Assembly (NCBI GenBank): GCA_902774015.1
Contig: CACYHB010000002.1
Span: 57,775-121,774, forward strand
DNA: 64,000 nucleotides
Reading direction: 5' to 3'
Origin: Oscillospiraceae bacterium
GTDB lineage: Bacteria; Bacillota; Clostridia; Oscillospirales; Oscillospiraceae
Under the pieces are notes generated by a model. It worked only from the letters and a program-made list of their open reading frames with translations. It made no database searches and was not told the DNA's origin. Position numbers and translations under genes: made by a program. The stretch's first letter is position 1; the number at the start of each line of letters is the position of its first letter. Below, one piece after another: positions 45,467 through 56,989 of this stretch.

Positions 45467-45509
45467 TTTCACTGAGAAGAGACCCTGCTGAAAAGTGCGG
45501 AGGTGCGCT

Positions 45510-46844
45510 ATGTTATACCGAAAAATCCAACCATATATTGAGGACTATCTGAAGTCGGACTCCAACAAGGTGCTGATCATCGACGGCGCGCGGCAGATCG
45601 GCAAGACCTTTATCATCCGCCACGTCGGGCAGCAGCTTTTTGAAAACTATATCGAGCTGAACTTCGCGGAGGATCAGAACGGCCCGAAGCTCTTTGAGCA
45701 AGTGCGCACCGTCAGGGACTTTTATTTCCAGGTCAGCACCATCGCCGGCGAAAAGATGGGCGAAAAGAAAAACACGCTGATCTTTCTTGACGAGATCCAG
45801 GCCTATCCCCACCTGCTGACCATGCTCAAATTCCTCAAGCAGGATGATAAGTTCACCTACATCGCCAGCGGATCTTTGCTCGGCGTGACTTTGAAGAAGA
45901 CGAGCTCGATCCCCATCGGCAGCATCGAGGTCAAGCGCATGTTCCCGCTGGACTTTGAAGAGTTCCTTCTCGCCAACGGCTTCAACCGCTTTGCCATCGA
46001 CATGATGCACGAGAAGTTTCTCTCCGGTGAGAGTTTGGACGCGGCAGCGCACGATAAGGTGATGGATCTTTTCAAGAAATATCTGCTGATCGGCGGGCTA
46101 CCCGACGCCGTCAACTCTTTTATTGCCGATACGAACATCGTGAAGGTGCGCGCGATCCATCGCGATATCCGCGCGTTCTATGCCGACGATGCGGCGAAGT
46201 ATGAAGCCGACAACAACCGGAAGCTGAAGATCCGCAGGATCTATGAGATGATTCCCTCCAATCTGGAGAGCAAAAAGAAGCGGGTGGTCTTTCAGGATAT
46301 CGAGGACAAGCGCGGCAAGCGCTTCTCCGATTATCAGGACGAGTTTGAGTATCTAATCTCCGCGGGCATTGTCCTGGATGTCAACGCGATCTCCACGCCG
46401 GTGTTCCCGCTTACGCAGGCGGTCGGCAAAAACCTGCTCAAGCTCTATCTGAACGATGTGGGGCTTTTGACCGACGTTCTGTACGGCAGCAATATCCGCG
46501 CGATCCTGGACGACGAGACGGGGATCAATCTCGGCTCCGTGTATGAAAGCGTAGTGGCCCAGGAGCTGGCCGCCCACGGCTGCAAGCTGTTTTATTACGA
46601 TAACCGCAACAAGGGCGAGGTCGATTACCTGATCGACGATTACGACAGCCTGTCTGCTGTTCCCATTGAGGTCAAGTCCGGCAAGGATTACACCATCCAC
46701 AGCGCGCTGAGCGCCTTCGTGAAGAACGAAGATTATCATGTAAAGAAGGCCTATGTACTGTCCAACACCCGCGAGATCACAACGAGCGGGAAGATCACGT
46801 ATATCCCGATCTATGATGTGATGTTCTTGGGGGCTGAAAGATAA
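45510..46844 (+). CDS. AAA ATPase with DUF4143 domain
   Basis: A 444-residue protein of the AAA_14/DUF4143 family. Walker A is GARQIGKTF (about 31-39) and Walker B LIFLDEIQAYP (about 88-98). The C-terminal domain has EVDYLIDD...PIEVKSGK, the E-D-ExK pattern of a PD-(D/E)XK nuclease fold. The family is common in accessory regions and its role is not established. GGAGGTG lies 8 bp before the ATG. It stands upstream of the TIR gene and may be expressed separately. Confidence 0.85.
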   Translation: MLYRKIQPYIEDYLKSDSNKVLIIDGARQIGKTFIIRHVGQQLFENYIELNFAEDQNGPKLFEQVRTVRDFYFQVSTIAGEKMGEKKNTLIFLDEIQAYPHLLTMLKFLKQDDKFTYIASGSLLGVTLKKTSSIPIGSIEVKRMFPLDFEEFLLANGFNRFAIDMMHEKFLSGESLDAAAHDKVMDLFKKYLLIGGLPDAVNSFIADTNIVKVRAIHRDIRAFYADDAAKYEADNNRKLKIRRIYEMIPSNLESKKKRVVFQDIEDKRGKRFSDYQDEFEYLISAGIVLDVNAISTPVFPLTQAVGKNLLKLYLNDVGLLTDVLYGSNIRAILDDETGINLGSVYESVVAQELAAHGCKLFYYDNRNKGEVDYLIDDYDSLSAVPIEVKSGKDYTIHSALSAFVKNEDYHVKKAYVLSNTREITTSGKITYIPIYDVMFLGAER

Positions 46845-46916
46845 GTGCACTTGCGTTGAGCGCGAAAGATTGCAAAAAAATAAATGGTTTACAAAGGCAA
46901 AAAGAAAGGGGAAAAA

Positions 46917-47753
46917 ATGAACCCTCAATTGAAAGATATAAATGAGATACTTTCACTATGCGATTCGATGATCGTTGATATTCAAAAGAATGGAATTATC
47001 AACAGAGGAAACTCCAACTATGAAGAGTACAAAGCGAGAATAAAAGCATTTTTGACAACTCATAATTTGATGCGTCCCGACTACGGACTCTATGCAGTAT
47101 TAGATGCACTGTACTTTACTCCAAACGAACGTACCGTCAGGTTTGCTGTTGGCAACTATTCAAATAATTATACTCTGAATATGAGCGAAGCTCTAACGAT
47201 CCGAAATGCAGTCATTGCGTTGAAGCATGAACACTTTCCAGACACATTTGAACGAATTTTTATCAGTCATAGGGAAAAAGATGCCGCCCAGGTGTCGGCT
47301 TTCATAGAGTTGCTCTATGCAATTGGTATTTCACGCCCTACAGTTGGTAATGATGAGAAAGTGATTTTTTGCACGTCGCATCCTGCTGCATATTTAGAGA
47401 ACGGTGCAAGGAATCTGGATGAAATACGGGAAAAGTTCAATTGCTCTGATCACACTTTCTTTATCATGTGGTACACAGATAACTATTTTGAGAGTCAGGC
47501 TTGTTTGAACGAAGCCGGAGCAATCTGGGCATTAAGCAAAAAATACCAAGAAATACTGATCCCCGGCTTTGACAGTTCAAAAATAGGCGGACTACTGGAT
47601 AAGCAATCGGTTTGGTTCCGGGCGAATGACAAGTTCCGTCTTAACACATTTAAGGAGCAACTTGAATCCATGTTTGGATTGGATCCCCTGACGACTAATG
47701 CTTGGGAAACTGCACGAGATTCTTTTATATCAAAAATCAATTCTTTGATCTGA
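46917..47753 (+). CDS. TIR-domain protein
   Basis: A 278-residue protein. Residues about 112-235 form a TIR-like domain: RIFISHREKD (113-122), IFCTSHP, FFIMWYTDNYFESQACLNEAG and the putative NADase glutamate E199. The N-terminal 110 residues are of unknown type. Bacterial TIR proteins of this kind cleave NAD+ or make signalling nucleotides in anti-phage defence. AAAGGGG precedes ATG 46917. Base composition is AT-rich, and the nuclease-methylase gene follows after 58 bp. Confidence 0.83.
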   Translation: MNPQLKDINEILSLCDSMIVDIQKNGIINRGNSNYEEYKARIKAFLTTHNLMRPDYGLYAVLDALYFTPNERTVRFAVGNYSNNYTLNMSEALTIRNAVIALKHEHFPDTFERIFISHREKDAAQVSAFIELLYAIGISRPTVGNDEKVIFCTSHPAAYLENGARNLDEIREKFNCSDHTFFIMWYTDNYFESQACLNEAGAIWALSKKYQEILIPGFDSSKIGGLLDKQSVWFRANDKFRLNTFKEQLESMFGLDPLTTNAWETARDSFISKINSLI

Positions 47754-47811
47754 TGAGAGTAGCCACTCCATCGAATAACGGGAACGAAAAAGCTAACAAG
47801 GAGATGTAGAC

Positions 47812-49797
47812 ATGACTATCTACGACATCTTAAAAGACACAAATTACAAAGCTGAACAGTTTTCAGCTGAGGCGATTGATAAGTTAAATGCCCGGATCGA
47901 GGAAAGAACAGATAAAAAAGGAAAAGTGTCCGCTTTTGTAAAATGCCTCGTCCGCAAGAAAGACATTGTTCTCAAGCCTGAAGAGGTGGTTCGCCAGCTT
48001 TTCATTGATCGCCTTGTTAATGAATATGGCTACCCCGTCTCCAGAATGCAGGTGGAATACCCTGTCTATTTTGGCCGGGAAGTCAAGCGCGCCGATATAG
48101 TCATAATGGATGAGGATCGGCCGACCGTTCCTTATATTGTGATCGAGGTGAAAAAGCCGAAACTTAAAGATGGCAAGGATCAGCTGAAAAGCTATTGCAA
48201 CAGCACCGGTGCCCCGATTGCTGTCTGGACAAACGGAGATCAGATTGCTTTCTACAATCGTCAGGATCCTAACTATTTCAAAGATATTCGCAACATTCCT
48301 ACTGCGACGCAGACCCTGGAAGACATTATTTCTGTCAGATGGACAATTCAGGATCTAAAAGAGAACGATCGACTTCAAAAAGAACGTATCTCCCTTAAAG
48401 ACGTGATTCTTGATCTCGAGGATGAAGTTCTGGCCAATGCAGGCGTCGATGTGTTCGAGGAATGCTTTAAGCTAATTTTCGCAAAGCTTTATGATGAGTT
48501 CCTCAGTGGGCAGACGCCTACTCGCTACTTGGAGTTCACCAATGCTGGGCGCACTGATTTCAAGCTAAAAGAGAAAATTCAAGAGCTTTTTGATAAAGCC
48601 AACCAGAAATGGAAGGGCGTATTCGATGAGAATACGAAGATTTTGCTTTCCCCCTCGCATCTAGCTATCTGCGTATCCTCCCTCCAGAGTGTCAAACTGT
48701 TCAATAGCAACCTTGATGTAGTGGATGATGCTTTTGAATATTTGATGAGCAAATCCAGCAAAGGTGAAAAAGGGCAGTTCTTTACGCCTCGCTATGTAAT
48801 TGAGATGTGTGTGAGAATGCTCAATCCCAAAGAAGGAGAAACAATGATCGATACCGCTTGCGGCAGCAGCGGTTTCCCTGTGCATACGATTTTCCATGTA
48901 TGGCGCCAGATGGCAAAAGATAGAGGCCTCAATATCAGCGAGTTCTTTTCCTTGGATCAGAAGCCCTATGAGTTCACTGAATATGTAAAAGACAATATCT
49001 TCGGCATCGATTTTGATGAAAAAGCAGTACGTGTTGCAAGAACCTTAAATCTAATTGCTGGGGATGGACACACAAATGTGCTGCATCTAAATACGCTGGA
49101 TTACACACAGTGGACGGAAACCGCGAAGCAGGAGGATTGGCTTAGCACCTATTTTGAAGGCTTTGATCGGCTGAAAAAGATGCGGAAAGACAGCAAGAGC
49201 TTTCGCGACTTCAAATTTGACCTGCTTATGGCCAATCCGCCGTTTGCTGGGGATATTAAAGAATCCCGTATTCTCAGCATGTATGAGCTCGCAAAGAACG
49301 CACAAGGGAAGCAGCAGAGCAAAGTGGGCAGAGATATTTTGTTTATTGAGCGCAATCTTGATTTTCTAAAGCCGGGAGGAAGAATGGCGATTGTCCTCCC
49401 ACAAGGCCGTTTCAACAACAGTAGCGATAAATATATCCGCGAATACATTGCGGAACGATGCCGTATTCTTGCCGTCGTAGGAATCCATGGTAATGTGTTC
49501 AAACCGCATACCGGAACGAAAACCTCAGTTCTGTTTGTCCAGAAGTGGGACGATGAACTGTGCCCGAAAAGGGATGATTATCCCATTTTCTTTGCAACAA
49601 TGCAGGAACCCAGCAAAAAGAACTCCGGTGACATAATTTATGTGAAAGACTCTGTAACGGGAGAGAAAAAGCTTGATTCTCACGGTCATATGTATGTGCA
49701 GCATGATCTGTATAATCATGAGGGATTAACACAAGATGGAATCGCTGAAGCCTTTATTGAATTTGCCAAGAAAGAAGGATTAAGTTTTTTCCGCTAA
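47812..49797 (+). CDS. Restriction nuclease - adenine methylase fusion (HsdM-like with N-terminal HsdR_N domain)
   Basis: A 661-residue fusion. Residues about 45-200 are a type I restriction R-protein N-terminal nuclease domain with Asp95, Glu112 and Lys114 (RADIVIMD...IEVKKPK). From about 215 comes an HsdM-type N6-adenine methylase: helical N-terminal part, SAM motif DTACGSSGF (Asp347) and catalytic NPPF (475-478). No HsdR translocase exists in the window, so cleavage is likely done by this protein, as in type IIB/IIG systems such as BcgI. The gene ends in a TTTTTTC slippery site two codons before its stop. Confidence 0.9.
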   Translation: MTIYDILKDTNYKAEQFSAEAIDKLNARIEERTDKKGKVSAFVKCLVRKKDIVLKPEEVVRQLFIDRLVNEYGYPVSRMQVEYPVYFGREVKRADIVIMDEDRPTVPYIVIEVKKPKLKDGKDQLKSYCNSTGAPIAVWTNGDQIAFYNRQDPNYFKDIRNIPTATQTLEDIISVRWTIQDLKENDRLQKERISLKDVILDLEDEVLANAGVDVFEECFKLIFAKLYDEFLSGQTPTRYLEFTNAGRTDFKLKEKIQELFDKANQKWKGVFDENTKILLSPSHLAICVSSLQSVKLFNSNLDVVDDAFEYLMSKSSKGEKGQFFTPRYVIEMCVRMLNPKEGETMIDTACGSSGFPVHTIFHVWRQMAKDRGLNISEFFSLDQKPYEFTEYVKDNIFGIDFDEKAVRVARTLNLIAGDGHTNVLHLNTLDYTQWTETAKQEDWLSTYFEGFDRLKKMRKDSKSFRDFKFDLLMANPPFAGDIKESRILSMYELAKNAQGKQQSKVGRDILFIERNLDFLKPGGRMAIVLPQGRFNNSSDKYIREYIAERCRILAVVGIHGNVFKPHTGTKTSVLFVQKWDDELCPKRDDYPIFFATMQEPSKKNSGDIIYVKDSVTGEKKLDSHGHMYVQHDLYNHEGLTQDGIAEAFIEFAKKEGLSFFR

Positions 49798-49852
49798 GCC
49801 CATCCGTTGAATCCTTTGACGAAGCCAAATATAAGGCTTTGATGGATGGGCT
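49785..49852 (+). promoter_or_regulatory. Candidate -1 ribosomal frameshift signal joining methylase and specificity genes
   Basis: In the methylase frame the end reads AGT TTT TTC CGC TAA, giving the X_XXY_YYZ heptamer T_TTT_TTC (49785-49791). After 5 nt, AGCCCATCC (49797-49805) pairs perfectly with GGATGGGCT (49844-49852), extendable by G-U, U-A and U-G pairs. An inner AAGCC/GGCTT stem lies in the loop. The -1 frame is open and protein-like before the first ATG of the specificity gene. Slippage would yield an about 1141-residue nuclease-methylase-specificity protein. Confidence 0.6.
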
Positions 49853-51236
49853 GGAAATAGGCGAAATACAGTTAAGCGACTTGGAACGTACAATGCGAAT
49901 CGATGCTGAGTTTTACAGAAAAGAGAACTTGGCAATAGCTGCATTGTTAAAGAAGCCAGTCTTCCACCCAGTTACAGACTTTTTCGCAATTTCAGATGGA
50001 AATCATATGTCTATTAGCGAGGCATTCCAAGCAGAGGGGGTTCCATATTATCGCGGTCAGGATATCTACAACACTTTTATTGAGGAAGCATCTCCTGTTT
50101 GTATAGATGATGATACCTTCCTGCACCCTCATATGCTTCGATCGCACCTAAAAGCCGGCGATGTGTTGATGTCGATTGTCGGAGCTATTGTCGGTAATAG
50201 CGCAATTGTTTCATCCGACAATGCGGCCACATGCAGTTGTAAGTTGTCCATCATTCGATCGAAGAGCAAAGGCGTTCTTCCGGAATTCCTGCTTGTTTAT
50301 ATTAAAACTAAATATGGCCAAAACCAAATTCAGAAATTCAAGCGCGGTGCAGCTCAGACAGGATTCCTTCTCGAAGACTTTGACCAGATCTATCTACCGC
50401 AGTTTAGCGTTCGGCTGCAAAACGAGGTTAAGCATGTTGTTGAACTGGCCCATAATACTATTGTTAAAGGCGATCAAGTTTACAACCAAGCGGAACAATT
50501 GATTCTTTCCAATCTCAGATACAAAGAACCAGAGGTAGAGGAAATTGTCTCATCTGTAAAGACTTTCCAAAGTAGTTTTTTGGCTTCTGGAAGGCTTGAC
50601 GCTGAATACTATCAGCGCAAGTATGAGGCGATATCAAACAACTTGAAAACACCTGAGACAGTGTCCTCTATTTGCACAATACATGATAACCCATTTGTTC
50701 CAAAGGAAGATAAGGAATATAAGTACATTGAGTTAGCAAATGTCGGCCGCAATGGAGAAATATCGGATGTTGAGCTTGTAGTAGGAGGAGAACTTCCATC
50801 TAGAGCGCGAAGAAAAGTGGCAGGGGGACAAGTAATAATATCTTCTGTTGAGGGATCGCTGCAGAGCTGTGCCATGATCGAAGATGATTATGATGGAGCC
50901 CTTTGTTCTACCGGGTTTTATGTAATAGATTCTGATATAATCAACTCTGAAACTTTGCTAGTGCTGTTCAAATCAAAACCGATACAGGCACTATTAAAGC
51001 AGAGATGCTCAGGGACTATTTTGACAGCTATCACAAAAGACGAACTTCTCGCCATGCCGCTTCCCAAAATTGATACGAATGTGCAGGAAGCAATAGCTGA
51101 AAAAGTACAGGAATCCTTTGCGCTACGCCGCAAATCGAAAGAGTTGATTGAATACGCAAAGCGAGCCGTTGAAATGGCGATTGAGCAAGGAGAAGATCTG
51201 GCGCTGGATTGGCTGAAAGAGATGGTGGCACAATGA
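49842..51236 (+). CDS. Restriction-modification specificity subunit (HsdS-like)
   Basis: From ATG 49842 a 464-residue protein with two target-recognition domains (about 20-190 and 240-420), each followed by a helical spacer (VRLQNEVKHVVELAH; VQEAIAEKVQESFALRRKS). It determines the DNA sequence recognised by the methylase. The ATG lies inside a stable stem and has only AAGG as ribosome site. The same frame stays open upstream to the slippery site with protein-like sequence (FPLSPSVESFDEAKYKAL), so the true N-terminus may come from frameshifting. It overlaps the next gene by 4 bp (ATGA). Confidence 0.88.
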   Translation: MDGLEIGEIQLSDLERTMRIDAEFYRKENLAIAALLKKPVFHPVTDFFAISDGNHMSISEAFQAEGVPYYRGQDIYNTFIEEASPVCIDDDTFLHPHMLRSHLKAGDVLMSIVGAIVGNSAIVSSDNAATCSCKLSIIRSKSKGVLPEFLLVYIKTKYGQNQIQKFKRGAAQTGFLLEDFDQIYLPQFSVRLQNEVKHVVELAHNTIVKGDQVYNQAEQLILSNLRYKEPEVEEIVSSVKTFQSSFLASGRLDAEYYQRKYEAISNNLKTPETVSSICTIHDNPFVPKEDKEYKYIELANVGRNGEISDVELVVGGELPSRARRKVAGGQVIISSVEGSLQSCAMIEDDYDGALCSTGFYVIDSDIINSETLLVLFKSKPIQALLKQRCSGTILTAITKDELLAMPLPKIDTNVQEAIAEKVQESFALRRKSKELIEYAKRAVEMAIEQGEDLALDWLKEMVAQ

Positions 51237-52534
51237 GCGAGGATAAGCAGTCCGAAAACCAGCATCCATATGAAAACTGGAAAGCTGTAACAGAGGCGGA
51301 CTTTGTAACACTCTTCATTAAGACGTGGTTTGCGTTTGTGTCGACTCTGCGAGAGCTATATCCTCAAGCCAGACCATACTATGAAGCAACCGGTGATTCT
51401 CCATTTGTGCAGGCATATAAAACGGAGTTTGCCGATAAGTTTTATTTCTTATGTCCGCTCACAAATGGAGTCGAACAGAGTCTTCATAGTACATATAAGG
51501 CCGGTCTAAAGATCATTTCAGAGAAATACCCTCGGTTTCTCGTAGACGATTTCTATCACATCAATCTTTCATACGCTGATAAGATTGAAGAGAGTTTTTC
51601 CAGCGTAGGAGGTTATTCAGGGAAGCTGTCTTTATCAATAAAATGTGTATCCAAAGAGTACGTCAAAATAGTCCTTCATTGTTCTGATAACAAGTTTCTA
51701 ACGAAGGCAGGCGAAGATACTGTCCTCGTGGTCAAAGATATTCAATATAAGGACATTCTTGACAGTTTCATTGAAGAATTAGAGCGGAACCCTCGAACGA
51801 TTGACGAAGGTGAGCTGATTAAGTTTTTCTATGAAGCGCTCTTTCAAGTGATTTCAGACGAGTTAATGGAGACTCTTATTGAAAAGCAAGCTTCTCTGCC
51901 GGATAAAGGGTTCTTACAGGTAAAGCAAGTATACGCTGTTATACAGTCTTTCTGCCACCGTGCGGTTGACTCTATGAGAAACTCTTGCCTGGATTCAGCT
52001 ATTGGGGCAGAGCACAAGCTCCTTTCACAAGCCCCGATTGCAGATTTTCTTCAGAGCTTCGGTGGAATGACTTCTTTAGACGAGCAAAATGCATACTTGT
52101 GGTTTATCGGATTTGTCTATCGGCTAAGGAACGCTTTGTTCCATGAGATTATTAACCCGCTGGACCCCTCATGGCAACTGGTGTTCAAAAACGCTTATCT
52201 TGTGCTAAAGCAAGTCGTTGATGCGAACATCTCTCGCCTCAAGACCGTATCACTGCTTCTTAATCTTGCTCCACTTGTTTATAGGGACGACTTCGAAAAG
52301 GCTCCGCCGCCCGAAATCCTAATTAAGGAGAATGACGAAACAAAGTTCATTTATGACAATGTCTCTTTAACGAATTTCAATCCGGACGGAGCGAAGGTTC
52401 ATATCGTTTCTACAATCATTTGCAAAGGGGAAACATTTCGGGTCCAATGCAATGTAAAGTGGGACGCGGGCCTCAAACAGCACAAAGTGAAGAATGTGCA
52501 AATTTGCAAAATAGAAGATCTCGTTACTGTGTAA
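51233..52534 (+). CDS. HEPN-motif protein in the restriction operon
   Basis: A 433-residue soluble protein without close family that I recognise. Residues about 210-345 are helical and contain the HEPN RNase motif RX4H (R299-NALF-H304 in YRLRNALFHEI). The first 180 residues and the C-terminal beta-rich part (about 370-433) are of unknown type. The ATGA overlap with the specificity gene means they are co-translated. HEPN RNases are common toxin effectors, and PrrC-type anticodon nucleases sit in similar positions in type I operons, so a guard role is inferred. Confidence 0.72.
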   Translation: MSEDKQSENQHPYENWKAVTEADFVTLFIKTWFAFVSTLRELYPQARPYYEATGDSPFVQAYKTEFADKFYFLCPLTNGVEQSLHSTYKAGLKIISEKYPRFLVDDFYHINLSYADKIEESFSSVGGYSGKLSLSIKCVSKEYVKIVLHCSDNKFLTKAGEDTVLVVKDIQYKDILDSFIEELERNPRTIDEGELIKFFYEALFQVISDELMETLIEKQASLPDKGFLQVKQVYAVIQSFCHRAVDSMRNSCLDSAIGAEHKLLSQAPIADFLQSFGGMTSLDEQNAYLWFIGFVYRLRNALFHEIINPLDPSWQLVFKNAYLVLKQVVDANISRLKTVSLLLNLAPLVYRDDFEKAPPPEILIKENDETKFIYDNVSLTNFNPDGAKVHIVSTIICKGETFRVQCNVKWDAGLKQHKVKNVQICKIEDLVTV

Positions 52535-52576
52535 GGCGATACAAGGCCTTGACACAAGAAAAAGAGAGGTAAAATC

Positions 52577-53233
52577 ATGGAAAAGACAGGCGTAATCTAC
52601 ATACTTACTAACCCCTCCTTCCCTGAATACGTAAAAATCGGGTACGCGGACGATATCGACAAACGGCTGCAGCAGCTGAACCGGAGCGAATGCATTCCTT
52701 TTGCGTTCCGGGTTTATGCGACGTATGAGGTCAACTCCCGGCTTTCTGATCTGAAGATTCACAGCATCATCGACAAGCTGAACCCCAACCTGCGTTCCAT
52801 CGAGAACTTCAATGGGAAGCAGCGCGTCCGTGAATTCTATGCCATGTCGCCGGAGGATGCCTATTCCATTCTCGAAGCAATCGCGGAGATCCACGGCCGT
52901 GCGGACAAGCTGAAACGGATCGCCATGGATGAAGAGCAGAAGCAGGCCGAAGAAACCGCCCAGGAGATTGACGCAGAGCATAAAGAGCGCTTGGCTCCGT
53001 TCCGCTTCTCCATATGCAATATTGCTCCCGGCGAAGAGATCGAGTATTGTTATAATCCGGAGATCAAATGCAAGGTCGTCGATGATAAGCAGGTGGAGTA
53101 TCAGGGACAGAGGTATTCTCTGTCGGCGCTTGCCCAGATCCTGACTGGCAGCAAGTGGCCCGTCGCCGGACCGCGGTATTTCAAATACAAAGGTGAATGG
53201 CTAAACGATATCCGGCATCGGCTGGAAGATTAA
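52577..53233 (+). CDS. GIY-YIG nuclease (T5orf172 type) with RAMA-like C-terminus
   Basis: A 218-residue protein. The N-terminal domain matches T5orf172/GIY-YIG endonucleases: GVIYILTNPSFPEYVKIGYA with Arg30 and the later EVNSRLSDLKIHSII. After a charged coiled linker (about 95-140), the C-terminal QGQRYSLSALAQILTGSKW...W resembles RAMA/DUF4357 modules found fused to restriction and methylase proteins. It is GC-rich unlike its AT-rich neighbours, suggesting a separate origin. It lies 42 bp after the HEPN gene. Confidence 0.8.
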   Translation: MEKTGVIYILTNPSFPEYVKIGYADDIDKRLQQLNRSECIPFAFRVYATYEVNSRLSDLKIHSIIDKLNPNLRSIENFNGKQRVREFYAMSPEDAYSILEAIAEIHGRADKLKRIAMDEEQKQAEETAQEIDAEHKERLAPFRFSICNIAPGEEIEYCYNPEIKCKVVDDKQVEYQGQRYSLSALAQILTGSKWPVAGPRYFKYKGEWLNDIRHRLED

Positions 53234-53254
53234 GAGATAACAGGTGTATAACAC

Positions 53255-56200
53255 ATGGCAACAATTACTACGATTAAGCAAAGAATAGAGCAGCTTGATG
53301 CGGGGCATTTTCAAATACTCTGTGATGCTTATCTGTCAAGAGAAGGGTACCCCAATCTTGTCGCGTTGGGAACGAGAGCCGGTACTTCAAAAACGACGCT
53401 CGGAACCCCTGATACTTATTTTTGCATGGCCGGAGACAAATACGTTTTTGCAGAGTATACAACGCAGAAAGACGGGCTGGTAAGTAAAATTCAGGATGAT
53501 TTGCAGAAGTGCTTCGATGTTGCATTTACAGGTATCCCAGCCAATCTGATAGCAGAAATCGTTTATTGCCATACATCATCCAATCTTCCACCCAAGAAAG
53601 ATACGGAACTAAAGCAATACTGTATTGAAAAAGGTGTTGCGTTGCGACTAATCGGGATTGACTTTCTGGCAGAAGAGTTAAGCAGAAAATACCCTGTCAT
53701 TGTAAAAGATCACCTTGGATTGACAATTGATACTGAGCAAATACGGTCTTTATCTGATTTTGTTAGCCATTATGATTCCAATGAGCTTGCTGCGCCTCTG
53801 AACACCAACTTTCAGTATAGGCAGCACGAAACTGAATTGATTAGTTCTGCTTTAGATCGTTGTGACATCGTCGTGTTGACCGGCGTTGCAGGTGCAGGAA
53901 AAACAAGGCTTGCGCTAAAATATGCAAACGATTACTCCTTAGAAAATGGCTACAAACTATTTATTATACACAGCAATGGGCTTCCATTGTTTGAGGACTT
54001 GAAGCTGCACTTTGAACGGCCTGGTAACTATTTTGTCGTTATAGATGATGCAAACCAGATTTCCCAATTGGGGCATATTATTGAGTATGTAAACAAAAAG
54101 AGCGACGGTTATAATGTGAAAATGATTATAACCGTGCGAAGCTATGCTCTTGATAGAGTAAAAACAGATCTTAGAGGAAAGGCGCGTTACGAAGAGCTTA
54201 GCATTGGTGCTTTTTCGGACGATGAAATCAAGTCTATTGTAAAAGACCAGTTTGGCATTGCCAATTATCGTTATCTGGACCGCATTGCCCAGATTGCGGA
54301 GGGAAATGCTAGAATTGCCATTATTGCTGGAAGGATTGCAACAGATGCAAATCGCTTGGATTCCATTAATGATGCATCAGAACTGTACGAGGATTACTTC
54401 GGAAAAGCATTTCAGGAAGCAAATCTGGAAGAAGATCAACAACTTCAAATCACTGCCGGTGTTATAGCTTTTTTAAACTCTGCGCACCTAGACTATCTTG
54501 AGCCAATTGTGCCTGTCCTTTCGGAATTAGGGATAGACATCAGCGTGCTAAAAAGCTGTGTCTATAAGCTCCACGAGATGGAACTCGTTGATATCTGCCA
54601 TGACAAGGCTGTTGTTATCTCCGATCAGTGCTTTGCTAACTTTATTCTCAAGCATGTTTATTGTGATAAGAAATCTATTAGTCTTGCGGCAATGCTAGAT
54701 GTTTGTTTTAAACCATTTCGTGAGAAAACAATGCTAGCAGTAAATACACTTATAGATGTATTCAGAACTAAGGATGTCCGAGATTTTGTAACCAAAGAAA
54801 TCAAAGCTGTATGGAAAAAGAAGAAAGATGAAGGATCGGCAGACTTTTGGGAATGGGTAAAAGCGTTTTATCCAATAAACCAAGAAGAAGCTCTTCTTAT
54901 GCTCAAAGAGCGTATTGATAACACAGAGCAAGTATCTCTTCCTGTTGCAAGCATCGATGTAAATGAACGGCGCAACTATATAAACGTAAATGACGACATA
55001 ATAACTATGTTGGGGGGGTTCGCCAATACTGGTAATCTTGATACCGCTCTAGAATTGTTCTTTACGTATTATTTGAAGCGTCCAGATTTGTTCATTCAAT
55101 TCTATCATGCAATAAACATGTATTATGGGATAAACCTGCGCGCTGTTGAAAACGATTTTTACACTCCTATTCGCCTGATAAATCAGTTTATTACCAGTTC
55201 TAATCAGTGGAAGAATGACTATATTCGTCTATTATTCTTCAATGTGGTCGGAAAGCTGCTTCAAGTCCATTTTTCGTCATTTGAAGATGGAAAGAAAGCC
55301 AACAGCATCGTTATTTGCAATTTTGCTTTGCGCCCATCTGAGGGGGCATTCATGTATCGCAATATGATTTGGCGCCAGATACTTGCAATTCAAAGCGAAA
55401 CAGAGTGTAAGTCAGAGATTCAGTCTTTGTTAAGACAGTATGCCGGTGCAATCGAAGACTGCAGTTATGAAATAATCGAAAAAGATGCTCCGTTCATTGA
55501 CGAATTGCTCAGCCAAGGTTTTTCAATCGAAGACGTAAATGATTGTGTTTTAGCCGAGCATGTTAATTCCATAATTGCACTAACAGATTATAATTCAGAT
55601 GTCCTCCAAAGATTTCTTGGTAGTGAAAAGCTCAAAGCCTATCATTTGCTCATTGGCCCCAAGTGGGATTTAACTTCTGACTTCCAAGAAAACAAGAGAG
55701 AAAAACAGCGTGTCATTTCAGAACATCTAAGGAAAGCAAACGACGCATGTGCAGCGTTTGACAGATTGTTCGATATCTATCTTTCCTGCATGAGCAGTGA
55801 GGCTCATACAAATTGGGAAATCGGCGAAGGAATGCAAAGAGCCGTCAATTACATGTCAAGTGATGCTCAGAATTGCAAGTATGCGGCCGAAAAACTAGTT
55901 CGCGCGCAACGGCTTGATGGAATACACGTTCTCGACATTGTAAACAGCTTGTTTTCGTATTATCCTCCGGAAGAGGTTCTTTCAGTTATTAGGTGTGCAA
56001 ATAAAGAGACTCTGGATTATTGGCTTTTTGCTTACTATCATGAGTTTCCTGCTGAGTTGATAACGGATAGCACAGTACAAGATTTCTATAAGTATCTTTT
56101 GTGTGAATATGATCGTGATTATCGTGGCGGTCCGAATAGGGAGTTGCAGTTCTTAACTAATTATGAGAAATATGACCCCGATGTCTTCATAAAAACTGTG

Positions 56201-56989
56201 CAACTCATTTTCAACAAACGCAGTTATTCTCCGTTAATTGTGACCTGTTACTTTACTTTGCTCTTTCATAGCCAATGCTACGAGGCAAAAGAGATCATAC
56301 AAAAGTTTGGAAGAGATCTTGCTCTTTTGGAAGACATCTACATTTTTGAGTGCTTGAATTATAGCCTTACTGATCTTGACGGAGCGCTGCTCAAAGAGAT
56401 TTGCGAAATCGATGAATCCTTTAGCAAGAGATATTATGCTGAAGTATATGCGGAAAAACAATATCATCGACATGAGGATAGCTCTAAGCTGCAAGTTTTT
56501 TTCAGATGTAAGAACTATATCCAAATTATAGATTCTATCGTAAATGAATGCTCGAACAAAGGACGGTATGTATATTTCGATCTTACGCCAGTAATGAAGA
56601 CCTTTGTTGCGGTACCAAATGATTTAGTTCAAGCAAGTGATACTTGGATTAATCACTACATTTCTGAATACAATCAAGATTCGGATAAAATGTGTGCGCT
56701 ATTCGAAGCAATCGCTGAGTTGGGTAATGAGGATAGAAAGATTACATTTCTTCGTTATTTGATATCATGCAATGCTGATGTCGAGTTGTTCAGGAGAATC
56801 GAGTTGCTTCCAAGGGAAGTATCATGGTCAGTAACTACGTTTTACGAATGGATAAAATATTTGGAGAAGCTTCGCCCTCTTTTTGTTGGCCTTCCATATC
56901 TGAAGCATAGGATCATTGTAAATGAAGAGATAGACAGGTTGCATGCGATGATAGAAAGGGTAGAAATCGAGGATGTTCTCAGAGGATAA
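53255..56989 (+). CDS. STAND-like NTPase with N-terminal nuclease-like domain
   Basis: A 1244-residue protein. Residues 1-150 look like a restriction-endonuclease fold with Asp53 (GTPDTY) and Glu67 (FAEYTTQ), the usual ExK lysine being Thr69. The NTPase has Walker A GVAGAGKT (210-217) and Walker B FVVIDDAN (D264-D265), with a sensor-like ITVRS. The remaining about 800 residues are helical and repeat-like, as in sensor regions of STAND proteins. Architecture and context fit antiviral STAND (Avs-like) proteins, which detect a phage protein and cut DNA. A seven-G run (55012-55018) is a possible slippage site. Confidence 0.8.
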   Translation: MATITTIKQRIEQLDAGHFQILCDAYLSREGYPNLVALGTRAGTSKTTLGTPDTYFCMAGDKYVFAEYTTQKDGLVSKIQDDLQKCFDVAFTGIPANLIAEIVYCHTSSNLPPKKDTELKQYCIEKGVALRLIGIDFLAEELSRKYPVIVKDHLGLTIDTEQIRSLSDFVSHYDSNELAAPLNTNFQYRQHETELISSALDRCDIVVLTGVAGAGKTRLALKYANDYSLENGYKLFIIHSNGLPLFEDLKLHFERPGNYFVVIDDANQISQLGHIIEYVNKKSDGYNVKMIITVRSYALDRVKTDLRGKARYEELSIGAFSDDEIKSIVKDQFGIANYRYLDRIAQIAEGNARIAIIAGRIATDANRLDSINDASELYEDYFGKAFQEANLEEDQQLQITAGVIAFLNSAHLDYLEPIVPVLSELGIDISVLKSCVYKLHEMELVDICHDKAVVISDQCFANFILKHVYCDKKSISLAAMLDVCFKPFREKTMLAVNTLIDVFRTKDVRDFVTKEIKAVWKKKKDEGSADFWEWVKAFYPINQEEALLMLKERIDNTEQVSLPVASIDVNERRNYINVNDDIITMLGGFANTGNLDTALELFFTYYLKRPDLFIQFYHAINMYYGINLRAVENDFYTPIRLINQFITSSNQWKNDYIRLLFFNVVGKLLQVHFSSFEDGKKANSIVICNFALRPSEGAFMYRNMIWRQILAIQSETECKSEIQSLLRQYAGAIEDCSYEIIEKDAPFIDELLSQGFSIEDVNDCVLAEHVNSIIALTDYNSDVLQRFLGSEKLKAYHLLIGPKWDLTSDFQENKREKQRVISEHLRKANDACAAFDRLFDIYLSCMSSEAHTNWEIGEGMQRAVNYMSSDAQNCKYAAEKLVRAQRLDGIHVLDIVNSLFSYYPPEEVLSVIRCANKETLDYWLFAYYHEFPAELITDSTVQDFYKYLLCEYDRDYRGGPNRELQFLTNYEKYDPDVFIKTVQLIFNKRSYSPLIVTCYFTLLFHSQCYEAKEIIQKFGRDLALLEDIYIFECLNYSLTDLDGALLKEICEIDESFSKRYYAEVYAEKQYHRHEDSSKLQVFFRCKNYIQIIDSIVNECSNKGRYVYFDLTPVMKTFVAVPNDLVQASDTWINHYISEYNQDSDKMCALFEAIAELGNEDRKITFLRYLISCNADVELFRRIELLPREVSWSVTTFYEWIKYLEKLRPLFVGLPYLKHRIIVNEEIDRLHAMIERVEIEDVLRG

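Follow-up and report, generated by a model that had tools for sequence, protein, structure and literature searches.

Does a nuclease-methylase gene that ends on a slippery sequence, with a specificity subunit encoded in the frame one base back, yield one protein or two? The question is raised by a locus, all features of which lie on the + strand, in the stretch of DNA analysed here (64,000 nucleotides, hereafter the window). The M gene (47812..49797, frame 0) encodes a nuclease-methylase of 661 aa, in which an HSDR_N_2 nuclease domain is followed by an N6_Mtase domain; its C-terminus, read directly from the codons AGT TTT TTC CGC TAA, is ...GLSFFR*. These codons hold the slippery heptamer T_TTT_TTC (49785..49791), an X_XXY_YYZ motif in the M frame composed of T (49785), TTT (49786-88) and TTC (49789-91), which is followed by CGC and the stop codon TAA (49795-97). 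After a spacer of 5 nt (49792..49796) a stem begins, whose first 9 bp are perfect (AGCCCATCC at 49797-49805 pairs with GGATGGGCT at 49844-49852) and which G-U pairs lengthen to 15 bp (5' arm 49797..49811, 3' arm 49838..49852). The RNA from 49792 to 49865 folds with −28.9 kcal/mol (z −4.07), and 0 of 200 shuffles were as good. The S part (49791..51236, 481 aa, two target-recognition domains, TRDs) is read in the −1 frame, which is open from 49791, where its translation begins with PLSPSVESFDEAKYKALMDGLEIGEIQLSDLE..., to a stop codon ending at 51236 (481 codons). Its first 22 codons (PLSPSVESFDEAKYKALMDGLE, 49791..49856) form a linker that also encodes the stem, and its first ATG, codon 17 counted from 0 (49842), is located within the 3' arm; a simple test found no Shine-Dalgarno match before it.

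An earlier note on this DNA had taken the heptamer in the M frame two codons before TAA, the five-base spacer, the perfect 9-bp stem and an S frame open ahead of an ATG buried in that stem with a poor ribosome site as a candidate programmed frameshift, leading to a fusion of about 1141 residues. Direct reading of the sequence and its ORFs confirmed each of these elements, including the length of the fused product (660 + 481 = 1141 aa). We propose that a programmed −1 ribosomal frameshift at the junction very probably makes both M and the M-S fusion. Ribosomes staying in frame would stop at the TAA two codons past the heptamer and release the free 661-aa nuclease-methylase, and those slipping one base back on T_TTT_TTC would read on into S to make the 1141-aa M-S fusion, a slip that would be aided by the stem five bases further on and, in many relatives, also by an upstream AAGGA. 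The tryptic peptide predicted across the M-S junction is EGLSFFPLSPSVESFDEAK.

For comparison we assembled relatives from several sources. One scan of genome contigs with M gave 74 loci. Matches were present in 9 of 400 genomes of the window's family (its own genome included, E ≤ 1e-60), in 2 of 394 genomes of its order and 2 of 391 of its class (both at E ≤ 1e-120), in 3 of 16 genomes of Campylobacter (the genus of L050), in 25 of 189 Selenomonadaceae (the family of the L073 genome) and in 20 of 81 Synergistaceae (the family of the L059 genome). Matches occurred in 82 phage and 318 plasmid records, of which three were taken; viral contigs gave 13 loci with an alignment query, three of them without a readable junction, and no relative when searched with a single protein. 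Of the resulting loci L001 to L151, of which L001 and L002 both represent the window, 141 have readable junctions and ten do not (nine lack a C-terminal anchor, one had no hit). The fractions reported here are not counts of independent events, as the loci are related by descent and many come from MAGs.

A slippery heptamer was found at the junction of 123 of the 141 readable loci, with S in the −1 frame in 80, fused to M in frame 0 in 40 and ambiguous in three, in which S is cut or broken. With identical junctions removed, 111 distinct heptamer-bearing ones remained (74 in −1, 34 in frame 0, three ambiguous), the classes being defined by presence of the heptamer. According to the deposited labels, which may be wrong for MAGs and viruses, the heptamer-bearing loci belong to eleven phyla (Bacillota, Bacteroidota, Spirochaetota, Verrucomicrobiota, Lentisphaerota, Chloroflexota, Campylobacterota, Synergistota, Thermodesulfobacteriota, Cyanobacteriota and Pseudomonadota), and the signal also occurs in contigs filed as phage, viral or plasmid. 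The 80 loci of the −1 class carry TTTTTTT (52), TTTTTTC (21), GGGAAAG (4), GGGAAAA (1) or CCCTTTT (2), and the 40 frame-0 loci TTTTTTT (24) or TTTTTTC (16). Five loci thus have G_GGA_AAR and two C_CCT_TTT in place of T_TTT_TTY at the same junction, the G type requiring three or more changes on the tree. The two C_CCT_TTT junctions are those of L006, which comes from the window's own genus, and L116; they form a distant subfamily (48% identity) with a longer M. Elsewhere in M such motifs are rare: frameshift-prone heptamers occupy 105 of 51,206 other M-frame codons of the surveyed relatives, 13 of the 105 being T_TTT_TTY. For the 67 distinct T-type −1 loci, the encoded residues and the codon usage of each gene predict 15.5 T heptamers, and for the 34 distinct frame-0 fusions 4.3; Phe-Phe pairs elsewhere in the same M genes take this form in 10 of 125 cases (−1 class) and 11 of 74 cases (fusions). 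Conservation of heptamer, spacer and stem among relatives, and the existence of genomes in which M and S form one fused gene, were the sequence checks proposed in the earlier note, and both were observed.

But, why should a gene that already joins M to S in one frame keep a slippery heptamer? A −1 stop lies within six codons in 34 of 34 distinct fusions (background 42.5%) and within one codon in 28 of 34 (background 14.9%), following the slip at once in 18, after one codon in ten and after five to six codons in six. A slip in the frame-0 fusions would thus release free M, as a mirror image of the window. Since these genes need no heptamer for read-through, yet keep both heptamer and early stop, selection seems to maintain free M in them. 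No fusion was left out of this count, because none of the 18 heptamer-less loci is a frame-0 fusion (their longest M extension, 51 aa in L076, contains no S). The fusion of the laboratory strain Picosynechococcus sp. PCC 7002 (pAQ6, SYNPCC7002_RS15140, 1179 residues) is annotated as a single 'N-6 DNA methylase'; the predicted free M of this strain would end in ...KLSFF. On a tree of 115 rows (sequences below 500 aa, ambiguous loci, four distant L006-like loci and five of the 18 heptamer-less loci were not included), a quick method indicates that the fused state must have been gained or lost at least four times according to supported branches and five times at best, although several of these switches rest on single rows such as L118, L132, L133 and L088. 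The frameshift reading of the earlier note is hence supported at the sequence level, with a first refinement: because the fused relatives retain the heptamer and a prompt −1 stop, the purpose appears to be both products and not the fusion alone.

The stem was followed through the relatives in two ways. A first MAFFT alignment of 64 junctions misregistered short linkers, so that pairs were counted by codon register and in two length classes. Across 62 junctions (not counting duplicates, the truncated L055, or L051 and L052, which form a stem with a different 3' arm), 447 of 496 pairs, eight per junction, are Watson-Crick, compared with 262.9 (sd 9.7) after synonymous recoding and a highest value of 290 in 500 runs; all 62 reach at least their own 95th percentile of recoding. 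The pair adjoining the core occurs in all four Watson-Crick types (A-U 28, G-C 12, C-G 9, U-A 8). In the ungapped class of 33 loci 92.7% of cells are paired against 23.8-48.3% when slid, and in that of 16 loci 97.9% against 38.0-65.1%. In both length classes the number of cells with double changes and the covariation score exceeded all 500 shuffles. Two other measures lay within the shuffles: how many pairs show double changes (equalled in 108 and 177 of 500 for the 33- and 16-locus classes) and how many further pair types occur (442 and 46 of 500). A fixed-register count placed only 17 of the 34 fusions over their own 95th percentile, many Synergistaceae fusion stems being shifted by one base, and was therefore replaced by a register-free test covering the 108 distinct junctions of unambiguous class, in which the helix starts 3-7 nt after the heptamer. 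The best helix was significant against 100 synonymous recodings in 73 of the 74 −1 junctions and in 32 of the 34 fusion junctions at p ≤ 0.05, and in 63 and 27, respectively, at p ≤ 0.01; L038, L130 and L133 did not reach significance. Of eight junctions that were folded, seven gave z-scores of −3.2 to −5.7, and L059 showed no advantage over shuffling (z −0.90; 39 of 200 shuffles folded equally well).

Codon choice upstream and nucleotide changes downstream of the heptamer fit the same picture. Among M proteins ending in FAKKE, the last Lys is encoded by AAG in 51 of 67, as compared to 38% AAG among all M Lys codons (binomial P 2e-10, ignoring relatedness), a choice which in many relatives yields AAGGA about 9 nt before the heptamer. 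The window has AAA at the equivalent site, and its Shine-Dalgarno-like AAGGA (49775..49779) sits five bases before the heptamer instead. Between the two arms of the stem, 31 independent nearest pairs differ at 37, 29 and 69 first, second and third codon positions of the −1 frame, a third-position bias indicating that the linker evolves as −1-frame coding sequence.

In nine of the 18 heptamer-less loci S follows M directly, with a start codon at −4 to +15 of the M stop that is preceded by a Shine-Dalgarno match of at least four bases; L057 to L080 among these nine have no linker, the 22 codons being missing in relatives that start S separately. In L070 the long ORF behind M is a different one, and in the other eight no long ORF starts there. 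Eleven of the 12 heptamer-less rows in the tree form one supported group, and the twelfth, L050, has no S beside M. As their M proteins share only 54-69% or 29-32% identity with that of the window, we do not regard them as close homologues, although some heptamer-bearing relatives are equally distant. Close homologues with an S start codon and ribosome site but no heptamer would have spoken against the frameshift according to the earlier note; this combination was found only in relatives set apart in this manner. The Shine-Dalgarno contrast between the two classes is one of degree, as 35 of the 74 distinct −1 loci also show a match of at least four bases before the best of several possible starts.

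These matches lead to a competing explanation, i.e. that ribosomes ending M just upstream re-initiate at an ATG or TTG in or near the stem and make a separate S. It is in line with the 35 loci just mentioned, with an ATG within the first 25 S codons of 49 of the 74 distinct −1 loci, with the plasmid record of L089 (NZ_LR890357.1), where S is annotated from a TTG 13 codons inside the −1 linker, and with the nine heptamer-less relatives that start S at its own codon. However, the remaining 25 of the 74 have no ATG in this region, that of the window lacks a Shine-Dalgarno match, the linker upstream of the ATG is conserved as protein and the heptamer is kept, and 40 loci fuse S in frame 0 with heptamer and early −1 stop. 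We thus consider re-initiation highly improbable as an account of the junction, yet some free S may also be made, because 49 of 74 loci offer an ATG and 35 of 74 a Shine-Dalgarno match in the first 25 S codons.

The extra base could also be added by RNA polymerase in the T run, followed by standard translation. Such transcriptional slippage is used by the dnaX genes of some species (described in PMC3711429), and the T run measures seven or eight in 49 of 67 distinct T-type −1 loci and seven in 19 of 34 fusions. The same source notes, though, that slippage often occurs on homopolymers of at least eight, while the run is only six in the window, in 18 of 67 −1 loci and in 15 of 34 fusions and never exceeds eight. 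G_GGA_AAR and C_CCT_TTT loci exist as well and the stem is spaced as in ribosomal signals, leaving slippage improbable. Least of all do we believe in a sequencing error, a decayed gene or a phase-variable tract, to which we assign practically no probability: most loci do have a homopolymer at the junction, many are from MAGs and three S parts are truncated, but the same junction occurs in the named isolates L021, L022 and L035 (−1 arrangement), the complete chromosome of Bacteroides fragilis L032 (−1) and the complete plasmid L088 (frame 0) keep the signal, the catalytic residues are invariant in 55 of 55 rows and each arrangement retains an early stop in its other frame. Phase variation, sequencing error, re-initiation alone and transcriptional slippage were accordingly rejected as main cause. 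As far as sequences can, comparison of the relatives demonstrates that the signal exists, that the linker has coding potential and that both products are under selection, mirror-image genes included; from this we infer that the programmed shift occurs on the ribosome and at a high rate.

What would the two products do? The activity of M is predicted from its PD-(D/E)XK residues D95, E112 and K114 and its NPPF motif, all of which are invariant in the 55 aligned rows (those of 64 loci with a match starting no later than query residue 6). The best PDB sequence match of M is the BsaXI RM subunit (8w0p_A, E 2.4e-27). For a fused relative, of whose poor model (pLDDT 64.7) only the PDB neighbours were used, BsaXI RM was the top fold match as well, with a Type I S and the BsaXI S (rank 6) within the first six. 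S consists of repeats: its N-terminal half matches its C-terminal half by blastp in 58 of 58 complete S parts of at least 400 aa, and a stricter motif search recovered both motif copies in 45 of 58. Lengths of just 28, 78 and 254 aa in three of 61 complete S parts suggest that some copies are broken. The S parts of L021, L032 and L075 measure 725-727 aa, about one TRD unit above the usual 464-501, and seem to carry a third repeat. An extra ORF downstream of S in L049 resembles the C-terminal half of S and might be a spare recognition module. The earlier note had expected a Type IIG-like enzyme of nuclease, methylase and specificity parts; as a second refinement, the known enzymes that come nearest belong to Type IIB (BsaXI/BcgI, with a two-TRD S and 2RM:1S) rather than being one-TRD Type IIG enzymes. 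In loci L001-L151 two queries detected no HsdR, the separate translocase subunit of Type I systems, with 3 kb upstream of M and 2.5 kb past S available in only 48 of 111 distinct loci; a SWI2_SNF2 domain is present somewhere in eight of nine genomes or records searched, and the queries could miss a distant HsdR.

In the window, the system has the surroundings of a defence island (45495-56989) with an AAA/DUF4143 protein (PDC-S01), a TIR/SpbK-like protein, a GIY-YIG-type T5orf172 protein (PDC-S57) and a large STAND-like NTPase. A gene for a 433-aa protein (51233-52534) overlaps the S stop codon, and its family is found just downstream of S in 14 of 64 surveyed loci. Its RNALFH sequence (Rx4H), which we take to be HEPN-like, is invariant in 11 aligned rows; no significant Pfam family and, with a good model (pLDDT 84), no PDB fold at E ≤ 0.001 were found for it.

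Known enzymes offer a possible reason for making both products. BcgI-like enzymes are 2RM:1S, whereas the mode of action of AloI/CjeI/TstI-like single-chain enzymes, with two TRDs at 1RM:2TRD, has been called a mystery in a review, as they lack a second RM (both in PMC3874165). An artificial EcoKI M-S fusion required added free M for cleavage in vitro; together with HsdR it restricted phage in vivo without added M, for which its authors suspect traces of free M (PMC3510504). TstI, a single-chain two-TRD Type IIB enzyme, acts as a homotetramer (PMC4027205), so that free M is not always needed. We suggest that one M-S and one free M would assemble such that each TRD of S is served by a nuclease-methylase (2M:2TRD, like the 2RM:1S of BcgI and BsaXI). 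On this view the shift ratio would probably be held near one half, because lineages swapped the frame-0 product at least four times. Whether this amounts to a restriction-modification family that fixes its complex stoichiometry by recoding, with M and M-S near 1:1 and pairing into a two-TRD enzyme, we regard as evenly balanced. Restriction enzymes are dangerous to an unmodified host, and the frameshift might be real but serve dosage or timing, keeping the full nuclease-methylase-specificity enzyme scarce. Shift rates at heptamers in E. coli ranging from 0.018 to 54%, depending on motif and stimulator (PMC4066793), would leave room for this, but a switch of arrangement, of which there were at least four, would turn the ratio of the products round unless about half of the ribosomes shift, and we consider such a role possible but less likely than not.

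If true, the 1:1 assembly would answer how fused two-TRD Type IIB enzymes could supply a second catalytic subunit. A recoding signal here sits in a defence gene, with two opposite arrangements that would give the same protein pair, and annotation can split or hide the M-S protein: the L089 record starts S at the linker TTG, and another plasmid record shows the fusion alone. U_UUU_UUC, U_UUU_UUU, G_GGA_AAG and C_CCU_UUU are among the motifs that shift in E. coli (PMC4066793). Insertion elements, prfB and dnaX are the most familiar cases of recoding in prokaryotes, and restriction genes are not named in the available part of the GeneTack paper (both PMC3711429). In a limited literature search we found no report of a programmed M-S frameshift, which may nevertheless be listed in the supplements of GeneTack (134 unconfirmed clusters) or PMC4066793, both outside that search; the word frameshift is absent from PMC9159934 and PMC3874165.

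How does the system compare with those already known? M itself is covered by PADLOC-DB PDLC03034 (MTase_I), which matches it over its whole length (1107.7 bits), and its protein family is thus already known as a Type I methyltransferase model, but this model stops at the end of M and is silent on S fusion or frameshift. NCBIfam models of MAD2 and MAD5 from the MADS system match M and S; with 311 and 107 bits against cut-offs of 720 and 400 the two are not members. BsaXI and BcgI (Type IIB, [RM]2S) likewise combine a nuclease-methylase with a two-TRD S, which is however a separate subunit there. AloI, CjeI and TstI resemble the fusion in joining a nuclease-methylase to a two-TRD S (about 1250 aa), the difference being that they are not known to release free RM and that TstI is a homotetramer; when the genus of L050 was searched for fused Type IIB genes, 3 of 16 genomes gave matches, none of use. 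The EcoKI 'Type IMS' enzyme illustrates that M joined to the N terminus of S works, but its fusion was engineered by a one-base insertion, native EcoKI having overlapping genes and a separate HsdR. The closest parallel in expression is dnaX (tau/gamma), as described in PMC3711429: one gene gives two products with a common N terminus by means of a heptamer, an upstream Shine-Dalgarno-like element and a downstream stimulator, at about 50% efficiency matching the stoichiometry of the complex. Both arrangements are known for dnaX too, the long product being made in frame 0 in E. coli and dependent on the shift in others, for which transcriptional slippage is the presumed mechanism. The system described here differs from dnaX in belonging to another gene family with T_TTT_TTY, G_GGA_AAR or C_CCT_TTT heptamers, and in that the M-S extension adds a whole DNA-recognition subunit.
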